Assembly: GCA_004369045.1 (NCBI GenBank)
Contig: ML213503.1
Coordinates: 2,955,697 to 3,019,696, forward strand
Direction: 5' to 3'
DNA from: Heliocybe sulcata
Taxonomy: Eukaryota; Basidiomycota; Agaricomycetes; Gloeophyllales; Gloeophyllaceae
DNA length: 64,000 bases
The translations under genes were made by a program, and so were the position numbers. Shown in pieces: positions 2,987-16,374 of the stretch (positions within the stretch are counted from its first letter, which is position 1; every line of letters starts with the position of its first letter). The notes beneath the pieces were generated by a model. It was not told the origin of the DNA and made no database searches. It was given only the letters and a program-made list of their open reading frames with translations.

Positions 2987-3468
2987 ATGTTCCGCAACGC
3001 CATTGCTCAGACTTCGCGCGCGCTGCACACCACGCCCGTCGCGCGGAAGACGGTGACGGAGACGGTGAAGGAGACTGCGGATAAGGTGGGCAGCTCCCTC
3101 CCGGTTAGGTGTTAGTGTTGAAATGAGTTTGTCTGCGACCTAGGTGAACAAGACGGTCGGCCAGAAACTTGCTGGCGCGATTGAGAAGGGCGAGCAGGCG
3201 ACGGCGGCCACGAAGGAGACGCTAGGTACCAACCATTCTCCTGCGCGTCGGGCTGTGCTGACTCTCGTACGAACAGGGACCAAGTCGGAGGAGGCGTCGC
3301 AGAAGGCAAGCGAGGCGTCGACGGTGGCGGGTCAAAAGGCGAATGAGGTACGATTACGGCTGTGTTTGTTATGATGTTATGATGGGTGCTCTGAGCTCAC
3401 GCTTTGGATAGACGGCCGCGAAGGCTCGGGAAGGCAAGGATGAGACGAAGGAGACGCTCTCCCGCTAG
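2987..3468 (+). CDS. Small mitochondrial LEA-like amphipathic protein
   Basis: Four exons (2987-3085, 3144-3225, 3277-3347, 3412-3468) encode 102 residues. The N-terminus (MFRNAIAQTSRALHTTPVAR) is a classic mitochondrial presequence: Arg and Ser rich, no acids, amphipathic. The rest is almost entirely Lys, Glu, Ala, Thr and Gln in short repeats such as KETADK, KETLG, KASEAS, TAAKARE and KETLSR, resembling the 11-mer style of group 3 LEA (LEA_4) proteins, which protect membranes and enzymes during drying or heat. Introns are 58, 51 and 64 nt. Matrix location and stress protection are inferred from composition; no enzyme motif is present. Confidence 0.75.
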
Positions 3469-5158
3469 GGGTGGAGCAGGACTGTGAACGAGCAGCCACG
3501 GATGAGTTGTATTCACTTATTAATGCATCAAGTAACAGTATGCCATCCCCTTCGCCACATATCCGCGTCCGGGGCCTTGCGTTTGCGAGGAATTTCGGAC
3601 ATGGCATGTATGACTGCATGACTGAGCCCGACAACCGACTATTAGATATAGTTGCGAGTCCTCGGTCTCACTGTTGCCGGTGCTGGCGATGTGTACGGCG
3701 GAGGTAAGAGCAGGGGGCTCCGGAACTAAATCCTGTCAATGGCATTGCTCTCACCTGACAAGCGTCCGCATGTGGACGCGTCGCGAAGTGAGACGGAAGA
3801 CGCGTCCGGTGATCACACTGCACAGCCACACTTTCCGGCAACTCAAGGGATCTCCGATAGGTCATCACATCGCTTGCCTCCCCCGCCCTTGGCCCCGGAC
3901 CCACACTTCAGTTATTCGACGCTGCTGGCAGACGAGATTGGGCACTACGTTTACTCAAGCTTCAAGTTCGATAAGCTGACTACATTCGAGCGACTTTGAG
4001 ATTGTGTAACAGTATTGGGCTGGCACCATGGCATGTTCGGAAAACTTCCATCGTCCGATATCCTTCGAAGTTGACGCGTCTGCCTGGTTTCTCCGGTGAA
4101 TTGGGTTCTTCTCGAATAGGCGGTTACCGGTAGAAGTCAACATGGCCGAAGGCAAAAACGGGACCGCCAGACGTTGTGGATCTCGATGTCTCATTTGCTT
4201 CCGCCTCAAATTGGCTGGTCTATCCTGTCACAGCGCGTCGCGTGTACGCCACCGGAAGACAGACTTGTCGGTGTCGCGGCGTAGAAGCTCAAGGATGTGA
4301 GGAAGCCTCGTGCAAGGGCGGGCTGCAATTGTTCTACTCTGTGGTCGCGGATAGCCTGACCTCACTCTGTACTGTTGGTAAAATGCAGTGGGGTGTCCGG
4401 CCACTCTCCATTCCCGGATACTCTGGAGTCCCAAACGTCACCCGGCTTTCTATGCTTGACTGGGTTAGATCCCTCGGCAGATAGGCGACCAGAGATGGAC
4501 TTGGATTACCGGCGGATCTCCCAGATCTGTGTCTCATCTGCTTCCGTTTTTCTCAACTGTGGCGTTCAGCGTCGACCGGAGACCGGCAAGTGGTAGACCT
4601 TTATGTCTGAAGCCATAACTGCGATATCCAAGCCGCATTTCTCTGTTTGCTACCTGTAGGCGTAGGCTGGAGAGAAGACATGTGGCACTTTCTTGAATAT
4701 AACGGACGAAGACAAGGAATATTCTTGCAGTACTTGGACCCAAATGCCTTACACGGTCGATCGACACGTCGATCGCTTCCGATGAGAAGCTGTTGAATGG
4801 CCGAACGAGATTGGCTGCCACCATCGGATCTGGTGAATCTGACCCTTCACGGCTGACAACCCTTCACCGGCCTATCCTTCCTGCGAACGTCCTCGGCCAG
4901 TTGAACGTCGCTGTCAGTTCGTTTGGCAATGGGCGCCTCCGCCGACGCGTCGAAGAAGCACGTCAGCCACGTATGACGCGCACCCGAACCCTTCCACGAC
5001 AAGACTTCCTGCGGCTGACCGATCAACGAGCCCGCCGGACACCGCAGGCCCGATGGCAACGGGCGCATAAGAACCTGTGCCCCGCACCCGTTTTCTGTGT
5101 ACCGAGCCCGCTCCGCTCGCACATCTGCACAGTCAATCTACCCTCTGCACCCGGTACA
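3469..5158. other. Intergenic region without a recognisable gene
   Basis: No frame shows family resemblance. Several medium open frames exist on both strands but none has a convincing start, splice pattern or composition. Two stretches near 4165-4195 and 4518-4550 share a short similar core and may be degenerate repeats. Confidence 0.4.
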
Positions 5159-8046: not shown

Positions 8047-8759
8047 ATGCGAGGGGATGTGCGAGACGGAAATAGCGCGCCGGGGTGCTTTGCTTAGAAA
8101 CATGTTCACGGAGAGTAGAAGGATTCGTCCAGGAATTCACAGATGAGCGTCCTCTTGAGAAAGAGGAGACGTCATTCGAAGATCTCGGGTGATGCCGAGG
8201 CTATAGGGAATCTATACAGGTCTCGTCTTAACGGTCGTAGGCGCAGAAATCAGGCCTTCAAAGCTTCACGGACTGACTCGAGGACGGATGCTACTGAACT
8301 AGAGCATCAGTTCCACGAGTACCCTCTCGTCGCAAGCAAGCACAAATCAGCACGAGTTCCTGCAGTGGGTAAGCGAGGTCGCCGGGAGTCATGACAGTGG
8401 CCCAGGATCATTATACCAGAAGCAGGAGACTAATTCTGTAGGTGATGCGTGGATGCGAGCAGGACATCGCATTGCCGAGTTGGAACTCTATCCATGGCAT
8501 GTAGCTTCGAGATTATTCATTTTGCCTAGTGCAGATCAGGAAGAGGCAGACCAAGCCGGTATCTTGGCATGAGCGCAGCCGACCTAAGGATTCCGGTTTT
8601 TTTTTTTCGGTTTTTGAGGGTGACCTTAGAGGGGCCGTATAGCAGCAGGTTCAGCCAGAGAGGACAAGACAATTTTGGTTGCAGAGTCCGGCGTCGTGTC
8701 CAGCAAGCGTCCACAAGCAAGCGTCCACCGACCGGCTCGGCCACGTGAGATCACGCCGT
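8047..8759. other. Intergenic flank left of the transposon island
   Basis: No gene is recognised. A short T-tract lies near 8597. The last four bases (CCGT, 8756-8759) are repeated right after the LTR element at 16007-16010. Confidence 0.5.
8756..8759. repeat. Target-site duplication of the LTR element, left copy
   Basis: CCGT directly precedes the TGTTGG LTR start. The same four bases follow the CA end of the 3' LTR at 16007-16010. Confidence 0.6.
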
Positions 8760-8805
8760 TGTTGGCGAATATGATTTCCTTATTCCTTTTTCAGTTATCT
8801 TACTA

Positions 8806-8836
8806 CTGTCGCGGGCCGGGTACTCGGACAGACTAC
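8806..8836 (+). repeat. Left terminal inverted repeat of the pogo element
   Basis: Begins CTGT right after the TA duplication and pairs with 13966-13996. The longest shared block is TCGGACA. Confidence 0.75.
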
Positions 8837-9727
8837 CTACTCGGACACTCTTCCTGTACATCACTCTACATCGAATATCAGACATATTTTACTACTGTGT
8901 CTAGTAGATAGATGTTAGAGGACTTCACATGCAAGATTTTGAGTTGTAACACCCATGCAAGTCGTGAGATATGGCGACCAAATTGGTGGTGTTTTCGGCA
9001 ATCCCCCCGGAATGGCCATGCGCGTCGAGCTGCTTACTCCTTGAACTCGGTCTCCTGCCCCACTGACCTATCCGTTTCCTCTGAGATTTTCGCCACTGTT
9101 TCCTGCTATACCTGGCTTGCTTAAGGCTGAGCTACCCAAACAATGGATGTGCCTGTCCTTTACAATATCGACATCTTCTTGGCCTTGGTGCAAGACCGCT
9201 TCGACATGTCCGGACAGCGCTCACGCCCGATATGTTTGCACTACAACTTCTGCATCTGATGGACTTTGGTATAGATCCTCTAGGTGCGAGTATCCACCCA
9301 TCAGCGTATTTTTAATGAATTCCCTTACGTCTACAGCTTGGCTACATCTCAAATGTGCGGTTTCCGGATGCTGGATGATGCAAAAAGCACGATTTTTGCT
9401 GTAGGACTCTGTTCGGGGATAACGGTCGATTAATGCATAGCAGGGGATGAGAGGTATGTCTGTCAGTCATCCCGGGTGTCCTCGAGCTAATATTGAGCTG
9501 CCAGGCTGCGTTGCGGCGAGGCCTGTTTTGCCTCGTGGGATGAGGGTCCGATAGGCCGTCGCTTGTCACAATGATCCATGTGTCAGCAAGTGGATCCATC
9601 CAGCACATGTCTGCTGATGGAAACAGCGCTGTTTGGCGACGGATAAATGTATGTAAACACCTGTATTGCATCACTATACAATCTCGAGAAGGTTGCTTCC
9701 TGTCCTGCTGTCAAACACACCTGCTTC

Positions 9728-12200
9728 ATGGCGACGACTCCTCTGCTCCCCGATATACTTGAGGACTCCAGTACACCCCTCTCCGTTGACTCTGCTGACT
9801 CTGAGCAACGACTTACCCTTGCGATCACTGCCATAGGTTGTTCAGGGGTGAATCAGAAGGGAAAGCCCAACTTGTCGATCTGCGAGGCTGCTAAGGCATT
9901 CAGCGTCTCTAAGAGCACACTGTCTGACAGGTACAATGGCAAACTCCCAAGGGCTGAAGCACACCAATCAGAGCAGAAGCTCCAGCCTGAGCACGAGAGA
10001 GCCCTCGTCGAGTGGATCAAGGTCATGGCTCAGAGAGGATTGCCTATGACTGCTGCTATGATTATTGACTGTGCAGTCGACATCAGCAAGAAGCCAATTG
10101 GAGAGTCGTGGGTGAAGCGATTCAAGAAGCGGCACCCTGATCTCAAGATCCTTTGGACTACAGCCCTGGAACAATGCCGAGCACAAGCACTCAATCCGGC
10201 TACGGTCAAGGAGCATTTCGACATGCTGGGCGGTGTGGTCGAGCAATTCAATATCCTCCCTGAAGATGAGTGGAATATGGACGAGAAGGGGATCCAACCA
10301 GGTATTGGGGGTCGAGTCGCGGTCTTCGTGGATCGTGATGCAAAATCAGTCTATCAGGTTGAGAATGGAAACCGAGAGCTCATCACGATTATTGAGGCAG
10401 TCTGTGCCGATGGCAGGGCTCTCCACCCGTCCGTCATATTTCCAGGGCAACGGTGGGATTTGGAATGGGGACGGAACAACCCCTGCAAAGCCAGGTACAT
10501 CTGAGTCCATCCAACTTCATATCTGGATATGTAGCTGACATTCTTGCTCTGTAGCATCTCCCATTCACCCAATGGCTGGACAGACCAGGACCTCGGTCTC
10601 AAATGGCTCGAGCATGACTTCGAGCCTGCTACCCGTAATGTAACTGGTCGTCACTGATTGCTCATTCTCGATGGCCATAATTCCCATTGCACCTACCGCT
10701 TTTGCAAGTTTGCTGCAGACCACAAGATTGTCATGGTATGCCTGCCATCTCACACCACTCATGTTCTACAACCTTGCGATGTTGGCGTATTCGGGCCCCT
10801 TGCATGAGCTTGGAAGGGCTGAAGTGAACACTGCATCACGCAGCCTCATAGTGATCAACAAACATAACCTGCTCGAATACTACCACAATGCTCGGCAGCA
10901 TGCGATGAAGCTGTCTACCATCAGGGCTGCTTTTGCAAAGACCGGGATATGGCCATTCAATCCGGATGCGATACCTGCGACTGCATTTGCTCCATCACTA
11001 CTTACAACCACCAAACCGGCTCTACCGCTAGCACCCTCACACCCGGCATTGCTCAAGACAAAGTCTATTGCCAGTATGAGCCCGCCCGCAGTGGACCTGT
11101 ATCCACTGAGCGACACGGCCGTATATGCCACAGACCACACTTGCAATCCTCTCGCTCAAATGGTATGCAATGTCAGAGTTACTGTGGCTGTCAACGGTAT
11201 TACTCCTGCCCCTCCCATCATGGCAGATCATCCGGTGATCGCAGCAAACACTATCCCTCTCACCATGCCCGCCTCGCCAGTTGTCACTCCAGTACCTACT
11301 CATCAATCTGCCGGCTTGCTAAGAAGTCAAATCATTGCCACTGCAGCAATAGAACAAATTCACGCACCTGGGGAGTCAATCCTACTGCAGCTCCCACCGC
11401 CGCCACCCTACTATGCCTCCCGCGATCAGCTTCGCACACATGTGGCTATCCTCACGACAATGCTCAAGGCTGCCTATGGTGAGACACAGTCAGACTATGC
11501 TACAATGGTACTCATGGAACGGGAGAATGGGAGACTATGCCAGCGAGCATTCCAAAAGGAGAAGAAGCCCGCCAAACGCCTCGACACATCACATGGGAGG
11601 CATATGACTTGCGACGAGGCCCTGGACTACCTTGCGAAGGCACAGTGGGAGGCTACCATGAAGGACTTGCATAAAGAGGCTGGACCTGTCTTCAAGCAGT
11701 GGAGGAACAAGATAATGGAATTCGAGCGAGATGAGAAGAAGAAAAAGGACGATGCTGAAAAAAACCGTCGCAAGGAAGAAAAGGCCCAGGACCACGAGAA
11801 GAAGGAGGAAGAAAAGCGCCTTGAGAAGGCTAAGGCGAAGACAGCGAAGCAGGAAGAAAGAAAGAGCGTCAAAGCACTACGAGAAGCAGAGGAAGCCGCC
11901 CGGAAAGCTGCAAGGCTTGCTGCAAGGCGAAAAGGGAAAGGTAGGAAGGCAAGGACAATTGTCGAAGCTGCCGCCGACCGGGACGAGTTGGACTCTGCGA
12001 AACTACCCAGGCCCAAGCTACGACCGCGCTACCAAGGTGCGCACTCGGGAACACGATCTGCAACAGCGGAACATGACGTACCGAGCATCTCTCCATCTCA
12101 ACCAACCTCAAACTTCACCCCCGAGCTCCAAAACTTTGCACAGACTCGGAAGGTGGACTCTTCCTGTCAACCCAGTGAGCTTTGCCATATGCCAGGGTAA
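9728..12200 (+). pseudogene. pogo transposase (HTH plus DDE_1 type), inactivated
   Basis: From the ATG at 9728 the protein has an HTH_psq-like start (SICEAAKAFSVSKSTLSDRY), a CENP-B-type HTH (WVKRFKKRHPDL), then the catalytic core. The acidic residues appear in NMDEKG, LILDGHNSH and LQPCDVGVFG, the DDD triad usual for pogo. A likely intron lies at 10495-10554. The gene is broken: in-frame TGA codons follow 'NVTGRH' (about 10655) and 'FGPLA' (about 10807), and a one-base frameshift lies just after (about 10817). From there the frame is open to 12200 with a long Lys/Glu coiled-coil tail (about 11730-11960). Both TGAs could be C-to-T changes, but that is a guess. Confidence 0.85.
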
Positions 12201-13965
12201 ATTTTGCTGATGAATGCATAGTCAACCATAACGATTCTTCCGGGAGCAAAGTAGCTCCTCTTCGCAGGAGTACACGGCTTCGAGAGTCGTGATTGGATGC
12301 AGGGTGTCATGAAGAAGGCTTGTACTGGTTCTGAGATGTGGTTTGAGTCCATAGCATCGAGACAATGTGCGTGCAGACCATGCAGAACGCTGCAGCCAGG
12401 GGATGGCGGGTTTGGCACTCCGATATCCCACGCTGTCCGAGTACCTGGTCTGCGCCACTTTGCATGCCCCACCAAAATAATATTCATACCACTCTTTCCG
12501 CGTTAATACGCCCTACGTGTCTCTGAGCGCCGAAAACGCATTTTCACTACATTTGCGCAGATTCCCACGCTCTGTGCGATAGTGAGCATATCCGCGGCGT
12601 CGCGCTACGAGCGATATTCAAGTTTCTATGGATTTTTCCGTTATTTCCTGGCTTTTCCCAAGCTCCGACCTCGCCCGACAACCTCTCCGAATCGTTCCAC
12701 AGGCTGTCGCTGGCCTCTCGATATGCAGCGCTGCAGCGGCGCTTCGTCGCTGTCGGCATCGGCGTCGGCGGCACGTCGTAGCGGTGCAGTGCAGTGACGC
12801 AGCGACACTTCGGCAATAGCCGATGGTCTTGTTCTAGGTCGTCTCAGTCATTTCGAGTCATTTCCGAGAGAGTGCGTGCCTTGCCGGCACCGTCCGTTGT
12901 CCGGCCGCTCATCGGCAGCGCTTTTGATGCGATGAGCGCACATTCCCACGCTTGTGTCGGACAGCGGCCGCTTCCGTATATGGACACTGCAGCTCCAGGA
13001 GCTTGTTCCGAGGTTTGGGGTTTGGTCTAGTCTGTCTTATTGTTTTGCATATAACTATTGTTCTTATGTTTAGCACAGGGACCTCGGATATTTGGTTTAG
13101 GCAGGTAGACTACTAGAGTAGCACCTTCTGTACTCGTAATTGAGGTTCCCGAGTCTACCAGAGTCCCCCAGAGCTTGTATCTCGTCCTCCCTGCGCAATC
13201 TAGTGTTTCCCTCCCTTCCCTGCGTCTCCGTCTGAGTTTCCTGCGTCTCCGTCGTTAATCCCGCTCATCGTCGCTAAACCCGCTAATCGTCGCTAAAGTC
13301 GCTGCTTGTTGCTAAACGGCCGACAAGCGTCGCTCACTATCCTGTGCTTCACAAAACCCTTGCCACTCTACGCTCCGAGTCGTCCCTAGCTATCACCAGC
13401 GGTTGGACGCTGTCGCTACACACGCCGCTGTCACTTCGTCATATTTTCCCACGCCTCGCTGTTTCGCTCGCTGTATGCTTTCCATCCGTTTCCTTCAGAG
13501 CTTTTGCTGTCTGTGTTCCGCCAGACACCAGAGGTCTTTTTGCTTCATTCTATTTTTAGAGTCTACATCTATTTTTTAGCGTTCAGCGCATTTTCGCTTC
13601 TATAGCGCTCTCCGTCGCTTCCGGTCACTTTCGCCGCTTGTTCTATTTTTAGCGCTTCGCTACGTCGCTCTTGTGGCTTGTGGTCACGGTCCAATATTTC
13701 CCATTGACTCCCTCCGAACTACATTCATACCCTTCGATTCCCGGGGCCTCGCAGCCGCAGCAGCACCAAGAGATTGGTGCTGGTGTGTGGTTGTTGTTGT
13801 TTGTTTAGGTCTTCCTCTTTCCGGGTTTTCGTCGTGTGTTCGTGTTCATCAGCATTCTCAAAAAATACAGAACACGTATATGTTATAGCCAGAAAGCATG
13901 CAGCCATTATGAGATATCTTCCAAACTGAATGACGCAGGAAGAGAATGGGGGTGAACCAGATTGC

Positions 13966-13996
13966 GTAGGGTGTCCGACTACGCAGCCCTTCACAG
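13966..13996 (-). repeat. Right terminal inverted repeat of the pogo element
   Basis: Ends in CACAG followed by the TA duplication, and is the inverted partner of 8806-8836. Confidence 0.75.
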
Positions 13997-14410
13997 TAAT
14001 ATTCATCATTATTTCACATTTATTCTGACTCGACTTCGTCTCGTACGCTCTGGTTTGTTTCTCGCCTTGTCTCGTTCTACTTGGCCTACGTATTCATATG
14101 ATATTGTGGAGCCAATTCTTGAGTATATAAGCTGTAGTATTTTACATTGTAATATCAGTCACTCCTTGCTTAGTCTCGACGATTTAAGCAAGTTCACATT
14201 TTTCGAAAAGTGTGGGTCCTTAGTTGATTCACACACCAGGCCTGGCGTCTATCTCTCTGTTGTCTCTCGAGCTCGCCGTCTAGTCATCCCTAGTCTCGTC
14301 GCCGTACTCGACGCCGCCGAAGTTCAGTACCGTTGCCGTATTCAGCGCCGCCGTATCCGAATTAGGTCGCCGTATTCGACTCCGCCCAATTTTCGTCTAC
14401 CAACGCCAAG

Positions 14411-15607
14411 ATGTCGGATCAAGAGCTCGCAGCGCTTGCCGCATCTATGACGCCCGAAGCATTCAACGCGTTACGCGCGCTCCTTACGGAACTCAATCAG
14501 TGCGTCGCGGCCAGCGAGGCTGCCGCTAATCAAGCCCGCGCAGCCACCGTTACCGCGAACCAACTCCAAGCCGCCTTCCAGCAGGCGCTCTCGAATGCAA
14601 ACTTTACGATCAACACCACAGCTTCCCCGTCCGCACCATCGACACCCGCCCGCGCTCATATCCGCGCCGATCTACCGCTGTTTCGCGGTAAGGATGAAGA
14701 AGATGTACGTGCCTGGCTTATCATTGTTGAGGATTATCTGAAGGGACAGCGCATCGCCGAAGCAGATTGGCCGTCGCAAGTCTCGGTCCTTTTCCGTGAT
14801 GACGCTATGCGCTGGTACGTAGCGCAAAAGACTACGAGGGGAGATATTGGATTTAGTTGGAGAGAGCTGAAGGAGGCCCTGGTGAGCAAGTACGACTCTC
14901 CTCTTCGAATCGAGTCGCTGCGCTCCGCCGTCAGAGACATCAAGTTCAAGGGCGACGTCGCAGACTACTGCGCGCAGTTCCGTACGCTCGAATCCCAAGT
15001 CCCCGCTATCGACATGACCTTCCCCGACCGCCTCGCGTACTTTGTCAATCCACTTCCGTTCGACATCGCTCGAGAGGTCCGCCGCGAGAAGCCGAAAAAC
15101 GTCGAAGAGATGTACTTTGCAGCCCGCGAGTACGCTCGCCTCCTGTCTCTCGATAAACCCGCCGCCAGTCGTAATATCAAGCTAACTAATCATTCCCCTT
15201 CCTATTCGACATCGCCGTATACGTATCCCGCTCGCACCGCTGCGCCGCCGACTACCGCGCCGCTTGCACCCATCACTTCTGGTGCCCAGGAACATGACCC
15301 GGACGCTATGGACCTCGACGTCATGGTTACCGGACACCGAGCATAGAGTAGGTTGGGTCCCCGGTGCTTCAACTGCAATAGGCTCGGACACATCGCCCGC
15401 GATTGTCGCGTCCCGAGTCGCGTTCGCTCCGCTCGGCCGACTGGTTCCTCTCAGACACTCGACGCCAACCTCTACGAAGTCCGGCACTCTGCCGATACCT
15501 CCGCAATTTCCTCCGAACCTTTCATCGATGACGCTCAAGCTCTTGCGGACGTCATTGAGGTCTCAAACTCCTTTGGAGACCTTAATGAGGGGGAGGGAAA
15601 TAAATAA
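14411..15607 (+). other. gag-like region of the LTR element
   Basis: The start reads MSDQELAALAASMTPEAFNA. A Ty3/gypsy-type retrotransposon gag (capsid) domain follows, with 'LPLFRGKDEEDVRAWL', 'WRELKEALVSKYD' and 'RTLESQVPAIDMTFPDRLAY', then a Pro/Thr-rich spacer. A CCHC zinc knuckle (C-F-N-C-N-R-L-G-H-I-A-R-D-C) lies near 15362. There is no pol after it. It looks nearly whole, with about one break. As a fossil of a non-autonomous element it has no host role that I can see. Confidence 0.8.
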
Positions 15608-15761
15608 TCGATTTATTTCGAATATTCCGTATGCTTTTCTCTTTGATTCCCTATGCTTGAACTGTTCTGCTGACTTTATTTCGCCTTTATCGAGTCCTGT
15701 ACGCTATAGGCTGAATTACCGCCTTCCTTTTGCAGGAGCAAAAGGCTTGAGGAGGGGGTAA

Positions 15762-16006
15762 TGTTGGAGAATATGATTTCCTTATTCCTTTTTCAGTTAT
15801 CTTACTAATATTCGTCATTATTTCACATTTATTCTGACTCGACTTCGTCTCGTACGCTCTGGTTTGTTTCTCGCCTTGTCTCGTTCTACTTGGCCTACGT
15901 ATTCATATGATATTGTGGAGCCAATTCTTGAGTATATAAGCTGTAGTATTTTACATTGTAATATCAGTCACTCCTTGCTTAGTCTGACGATTTAAGCAAG
16001 TTCACA
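15762..16006 (+). repeat. 3' LTR, intact
   Basis: 245 bp, TGTTGG...TTCACA, preceded by a purine tract and followed by the CCGT duplication. It contains a TATATAAG promoter-like motif near 15935 and serves as the reference that reveals the split 5' LTR. Confidence 0.88.
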
Positions 16007-16025
16007 CCGTACGGGTCACGTCACA

Positions 16026-16374
16026 TTATAAGAGGGATGCCCGACCCCGAGCAATTTTCTCAACTTCCGCCGCAGCTCTCGCCATCGAGCAGAGTAACTC
16101 TTGGTCTCCGCGTAGGTCGAGGGTATCGTCGGTGGCAGGAGAACAGTCGACGGGTTCAATTAAGCCGGAGCGCCTTCCAGCGGGTACGCGTCCGTCTTCG
16201 TCTGAAGGCGGCTCGGAAGGATGCTTGACTATGTAACTCGTACATTCCTTCGCAGCCAATGGCATGTATCGTACAGACTGCTCCCGTGTTCCTTGATAAA
16301 TTGATTGTGTCGTCGTCAGCCTCCCTTTTGCCAATTCCTCCGCGTTTCATGACGGGCGTAGCACGCCCCGACAA
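16026..16374 (-). other. Possible small gene or remnant, unrecognised
   Basis: Two overlapping minus-strand frames cover this stretch, one starting at 16374 (MSGRATPVMKRGGIGKREAD) and one ending at 16026. They could be linked by an intron or be a decayed gene. I recognise no family. The 3' LTR ends only 20 bp beyond the downstream stop. The rest of 16011-16726 shows nothing else. Confidence 0.2.

Follow-up and report, generated by a model that had tools for sequence, protein, structure and literature searches.

Nested insertion of a pogo-type transposon and a dispersed repeat within a gag-only long terminal repeat element of Heliocybe sulcata

Here, we examined a 64,000-nt stretch of the genome of the basidiomycete Heliocybe sulcata (assembly GCA_004369045.1, contig ML213503.1, positions 2,955,697 to 3,019,696), called the window below in its full length, in which a long terminal repeat (LTR) retrotransposon, a pogo-type DNA transposon, and a third, dispersed repeat lie one inside the other, very probably as the outcome of three successive insertions. 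As the first step, a short gag-only Ty3-type LTR element would have integrated with a 4-bp duplication of CCGT, using reverse transcriptase and integrase supplied by another element. A ~3.84-kb pogo/Fot-type transposon, with a DD35D transposase that probably bears an intron, would then have moved by cut-and-paste into a TA at LTR positions 45-46, and lastly a 1.35-kb dispersed repeat would have entered the pogo transposon in its 3' subterminal region with a 4-bp NCGN duplication, every move being presumably ordinary transposition. An initial annotation of this DNA had described the first two elements, i.e., a pogo transposon inside an LTR; the third nested repeat, the gag-only character of the LTR element, and the probable transposase intron are added here. 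All comparisons were made within one assembly (31.6 Mb, 51 contigs), and the genome searches scored the best candidates only; contigs are referred to as C1, C3, C24, and so on, and the loci that were read carry L-numbers.

The boundaries, target duplications, empty sites, and nesting order are legible in the window itself. At the left pogo junction, TTAC-TA is followed by CTGTCGCGGG, and at the right junction, CCCTTCACAG is followed by TA-ATATTC, while the uninterrupted 3' LTR reads TTACTAATATTC across the same point and provides a base-exact empty site. The insert is 5,191 bp long, and the LTR continues from 13999 (Table 1). The junctions, TA duplication, and empty site are all as the initial annotation had claimed when it resolved these boundaries to the base. 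The insertion falls at LTR position 46, and a TATA-like box lies at LTR position 172. Reverse transcription copies the U3 region of the 3' LTR into both LTRs of a new element, and because the insert is present in the U3 of one LTR only, the pogo insertion must have followed integration of the LTR element. The order first proposed (LTR element, then pogo) is thus borne out by the position of the insert as well as by the TA duplication and the empty sites, and the count of about three differences between the LTRs agrees with the two substitutions and one single-base indel that we found over 245 aligned bases.

The LTR has 12 matches across the genome, three of which belong to the window element itself. 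LTR position 46 is crossed without the block in six of the twelve (the element's own 3' LTR and five others, two of which, on C17 and at C1:260512, are only 72-76% identical); four more matches end short of the insertion point (query 144-245 or 163-239), and the last two correspond to the two parts of the split 5' LTR. None of the six LTR matches that cross the point carries the same block, and the other five are empty there. The searches made revealed no second copy of the pogo block, which is single-copy to that extent: the first 400 bp of the insert match elsewhere over 43 bp only, and 9206-12500, besides its own location, found a relative on C24 (71% identity) and 42 bp on C27. The ends of the insert, on the other hand, match those of the C24 relative and of a family of 1.1-kb copies described below, as expected of one pogo copy among others. 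That the whole nest is an artefact of assembly appears highly improbable: although runs of N are present elsewhere in the assembly (we met them in L057, L062, and L064), the window is without any N, and three separate sets of target duplications, exact or near-exact, stand where they are predicted.

Assignment of the insert to the pogo/Fot1 type is supported by its TA duplication, its helix-turn-helix (HTH) and Tc5-type domain, its DDE_1 domain, and its DD35D catalytic signature. Pfam matches in the transposase frames were HTH_psq (1.1e-6), HTH_Tnp_Tc5 (1.1e-10), and DDE_1 (4.4e-21), and the second and third catalytic aspartates are spaced by 35 residues. DD35D is given for pogo groups 33-40, and clade 37 is named with Fot1, in PMC7325037. 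The window element resembles the pogo/Fot1 group of Tc1/mariner, as characterized there, in TA duplication, HTH and CENP-B/Tc5-like domain, DDE_1, and DD35D, whereas its length (3.8 kb without the nested repeat), probable intron, and extra 3' subterminal end motif set it apart; it is placed by domains and spacing, not by a tree. The pogo identity first assigned to the insert therefore stands, but the insert is not one transposon, as it also carries the third element; once the repeat and its duplication are subtracted, the pogo part measures ~3,839 bp, close to the 3,819 bp of its C24 relative.

The relative on C24 has TA on both sides, and 373 of 566 aligned residues of its transposase are identical to that of the window. 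The C24 transposase is also broken, in other places, by one stop and two frameshifts (by eye). A piece on C27 (L060, C27:217500-223500, at 2995-3598) repeats the 3'-terminal 604 bp of the C24 relative with one mismatch, its 5' side missing, and is a very recent truncated copy of the C24 pogo. The window and C24 elements share an arrangement of end motifs, in which two copies lie at the 5' end and two inverted copies belong to the 3' side, the outer at the terminus and the inner about 186-188 bp from it, and L010 has a match to the inner end motif at a like distance (~187 bp); these motifs are probably transposase binding sites. We considered whether the pogo transposon really ends, on its 3' side, at the inner motif (12433-12457) and rejected this, as in C24 the same motif lies 188 bp short of the end of the element.

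Table 1 Features of the nested insertion, in window coordinates
Feature	Position	Strand	Basis or remark
LTR-element target duplication CCGT, left copy	8756..8759	.	sequence
5' LTR, first piece (LTR positions 1-46, U3)	8760..8805	+	98% to 15762-15807
TA target site of the pogo insertion, left copy	8804..8805	.	sequence
Pogo-type transposon including the nested third repeat	8806..13996	+	full-length C24 relative, 3,819 bp
5' terminal inverted repeat region; TACTCGGACA motif twice, at a 17-bp distance	8806..8848	+	91% identity over 43 bp with non-autonomous copies
Transposase exon 1 with HTH_psq, HTH_Tnp_Tc5, and first catalytic D	9647..10494	+	Pfam; 9647 is the start of the open frame, not necessarily the start codon
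Probable GT-AG intron, 60 bp, with branch-like CTGAC	10495..10554	+	sequence only
Rest of transposase, DDE_1 with DD35D	10555..12197	+	stops at 10655 and 10805; frameshift at ~10816-10836
Subterminal inverted end motif	12433..12457	-	~186 bp from 3' end without third repeat; 188 bp in C24
Third-element target duplication, left copy GCGT	12500..12503	.	right copy 13852-13855, GCAT
Unclassified dispersed repeat of 1,348 bp (third element)	12504..13851	+	no inverted ends found
3' terminal inverted repeat of pogo	13970..13996	-	
Remainder of 5' LTR, headed by the right TA copy (13997-13998)	13997..14198	+	99% to 15806-16006
LTR-element internal region, gag only, no pol	14199..15761	+	purine-rich tract before 3' LTR
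Intact 3' LTR, then right target copy CCGT (16007-16010)	15762..16006	+	

Copies of 1.1 kb carry the same ends as the two pogo elements. Matches to one member of this family are full length in 12 of 18 cases, and the ends common to all ten oriented copies, the window, and C24 extend over 43 bp (5') and 30-32 bp (3'). TA was found on both sides at nine of 11 loci, the exceptions being L011, with AA on one side, and L013, for which the searched stretch revealed no 3' end. Beyond the ends, a 57-66-bp subterminal stretch is shared at 74-75% in two of the ten copies (E 0.01), and some pairs of copies are only 0.8-1.3% different. No DDE_1 match fell at the places of these copies, on which no protein-family search was run. 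With their 12 full-length members, shared ends, and mostly TA target, they are comparable to pogo derivatives of the kind of miniature inverted-repeat transposable elements, for which 1.1 kb is long.

The third element is a dispersed repeat whose ends read TAATACG...TTCATCA, not TG...CA. Its last 254 bp, searched with query 13598-13997, gave at least 42 matches including its own (the best 40 of 95 candidates being scored), among which 27 others match nearly all 254 bp at 81-96% and the rest are partial or ~75% identical; the repeat is full length at 14 of the 19 non-window loci read, and the copy closest to that of the window is 5.7% different. Six additional places resemble part of its 3' end (window ~13661-13856) with 75-76% identity. 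When read by eye in 16 copies including that of the window, the 4-bp flanks were identical in 11, agreed at three of four positions in three, and agreed at two of four in the remaining two. A strict script, which scored ten of 20 loci, found eight identical flanks and two agreeing at three of four positions, with left flanks all NCGN, and 5,000 shuffles yielded a mean of 1.1 identical flanks and a maximum of 6, against the 8 observed. Paralogous empty sites with one target copy were seen for the L026 insertion in the flank of L038 and the L030 insertion in the flank of L037, and some of the similar flank pairs among the loci are empty sites of the repeat. Three observations weigh against insertion of this repeat by a regular target duplication, namely that the window duplication has one mismatch (GCGT/GCAT), that the two poorest flank pairs by eye (L037 and L040) lie outside the strict test, and that the looser score of at least three of four positions (ten of ten loci) was also reached by some shuffles (mean 4.8), all centres being CG.

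Two other identities for the third repeat were tried and rejected. A structured RNA was not borne out by Rfam, in which a search of 8700-16100 (up to E 5) yielded two hits, neither of them within the repeat and both scoring far under the gathering threshold. For an LTR attached to an internal region, 0 pairs among 19 loci share sequence directly at the 3' edge (the upstream flanks being ~400 bp or missing). This latter result, together with ends that lack TG...CA and a reverse-transcriptase match within 8 kb for only two of the 28 listed copies, also speaks against the view that the repeat is a solo LTR left by a retrotransposon not yet recognised, with a non-autonomous DNA element as the alternative. 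A near-fixed length, the 4-bp duplication, and the failure to find any inverted match between the two ends that would indicate terminal inverted repeats speak for a solo LTR, and the nearby LTR element likewise makes 4-bp duplications; we give the solo LTR somewhat less than an even chance.

The LTR element that hosts both insertions has an internal region of 1,563 bp, in which gag occupies 14366-15604 (Retrotrans_gag and zf-CCHC) and is interrupted by one in-frame stop (15344-15346) between its capsid and zinc-knuckle parts. With Ty3/gypsy elements, it shares Retrotrans_gag, the CCHC zinc knuckle, and the purine-rich tract, but protease, reverse transcriptase, RNase H, and integrase were all absent from the 1.56-kb interior. 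No TGG that would begin a primer binding site follows directly after the LTR (a tRNA match was not searched). A close copy on C3 is flanked on both sides by TTAT, and because the window copy is flanked by CCGT, the LTR family makes 4-bp duplications. The gag of the C3 copy has no stop in the 283 codons compared, over which the ratio of nonsynonymous to synonymous substitution (dN/dS) between window and C3 is 0.21; the comparison with a decayed relative found on C1 (171 aligned positions) gave a dN/dS of 0.28. This C1 relative (L058, C1:1714500-1724400) is likewise gag-only, is 72% identical over 478 bp, and retains the zinc knuckle as well as 40 bp of a similar LTR. In the alignment of window 14754-15761 with the C3 copy (L057), the first 231 columns are identical, and differences of several percent crowd thereafter, a mosaic that likely reflects recombination between element lineages or template switching.

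Among 36 RVT_1 matches (32 over the cut-off), none shared a contig with one of the 12 LTR matches at a distance of 64.9 kb or less, in a search that was not exhaustive, and the LTR element may have moved in trans. It is comparable in this regard to the plant TR-GAG elements described in PMC8704663, which likewise carry a gag open reading frame only, and one of which was seen transposing in Arabidopsis; the window element differs from them in its fungal host and Ty3-type gag, and no pol-bearing partner with similar LTRs was found for it.

The divergence between the two LTRs (K = 0.008, 95% 0.001-0.029) corresponds to an age of ~3.9 million years (0.5-14), calculated by hand at the fungal rate of 1.05e-9 used in PMC4905642, and whether both insertions are "recent", as they were first described, depends on the clock used. 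The breaks reported in the transposase were upheld as to two stops and a frameshift, but not as to an apparent stop at 10502-10504, which falls inside the probable 60-bp intron that would account for it. The initial annotation left two explanations for these breaks, namely that the transposon was moved when already dead or that it decayed fast, and it is possible to fit the LTR timing to either, as it picks neither. We considered a lesion model with LTR-calibrated rates, Jeffreys priors on the LTR counts, and insertion either at once or uniformly later, under which at least three lesions of any kind since insertion have a probability of 0.28-0.68, and at least two stops plus a frameshift a probability of 0.02-0.09 without CpG acceleration.

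CpG transitions bear on these figures, as they ran 3.5-20 times faster than other transitions in four of five comparisons (two of them overlapping and concerning the third repeat), and ~3.5-fold by hand between the window and C3 LTR copies; this excess raises the 0.02-0.09 figure. Both transposase stops are of the type that CpG transitions make (by eye). The observed/expected CpG ratio is 0.70 in 8806-12500, 0.79 in C24, and 0.64-0.68 in non-autonomous copies, compared with 1.0 in the whole window, 1.38 in the gag region, and 1.25 in the third repeat; the CpG-poor pogo family members (0.64-0.79) are window 8806-12500, L010, L015, and L056. Between the window and C24 transposases, synonymous sites are saturated and dN is 0.25.

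That the transposase worked at insertion and decayed later, mainly by CpG-type mutation, has in our judgment about an even chance: the LTR clock gives enough time, the pogo part is CpG-poor relative to the window, and the CpG-transition excess is widespread. Weighing against this later decay are the gag region, which is not CpG-depleted, the C24 and non-autonomous copies, which are likewise CpG-poor and indicate that the depletion largely predates insertion, the fifth CpG comparison (a single copy pair), which shows no CpG change, and the low probability of the exact lesion mix without CpG acceleration, which mildly favours death before insertion. Death before insertion, with movement in trans by a related transposase as for the non-autonomous copies, is possible but in our judgment less likely than not. 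It would agree with twelve full-length 1.1-kb copies that have the same ends and whose movement apparently relied on no transposase encoded within them, and with the failure to find an intact transposase with CTGT..ACAG ends among six DDE_1 matches (five loci), those of the window and C24 both being broken; yet at least three lesions after insertion are quite probable, fast CpG transitions and CpG-type stops offer a route to later decay, and saturated synonymous sites with low dN point to a lineage long under selection.

As for the enzymes that moved these copies, CTGT..ACAG ends were not found around the C14, C40, and C9 transposases in the stretches examined. The C14, C40, and C14:410k transposases were rejected as helpers, being apparently of a different family and without such ends in the stretches examined (one of the helper-candidate stretches stops at a contig end, and two hold runs of N), while cross-mobilisation by them may have occurred. 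A second pogo-type family with other ends was observed at L061 (C14:791000-796434), L062 (C40:97000-104500), and L064 (C14:407500-414500), with three nearly identical transposase copies (by eye), two of them interrupted by N and the C40 copy lying within a perfect 29-bp inverted repeat; this family was possibly active recently. The 1.1-kb copies may have used an enzyme that is not visible in the assembly, i.e., a pogo transposase, not found intact here, that would have served them and perhaps the window copy too.

Together, the nest is built of known kinds of element, except for the unclassified third repeat. A wider reading, which we consider unlikely, is that both outer elements represent families sustained by borrowed enzymes. 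One would be a gag-only lineage, with purifying selection on gag in comparisons at two divergence levels and no detectable pol partner sharing its LTRs, the other a pogo family in which both detectable transposases are broken and non-autonomous copies were recently mobile. If true, the genome would hold orphan mobile families that depend on the enzymes of unrelated elements. As for the main reading of three successive insertions, the coverage of the assembly and searches weighs against it, as an intact transposase or pol-bearing partner may have been missed or may sit in an assembly gap, and a run of N in the C3 copy covers part of its 5' LTR and the start of its internal region, leaving its full inside unreadable. 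Nested insertions with exact empty sites supply relative dates for three families within a single genome, and a gag-only lineage under selection, together with pogo passengers for which no working transposase was seen, makes movement in trans testable in a fungus.

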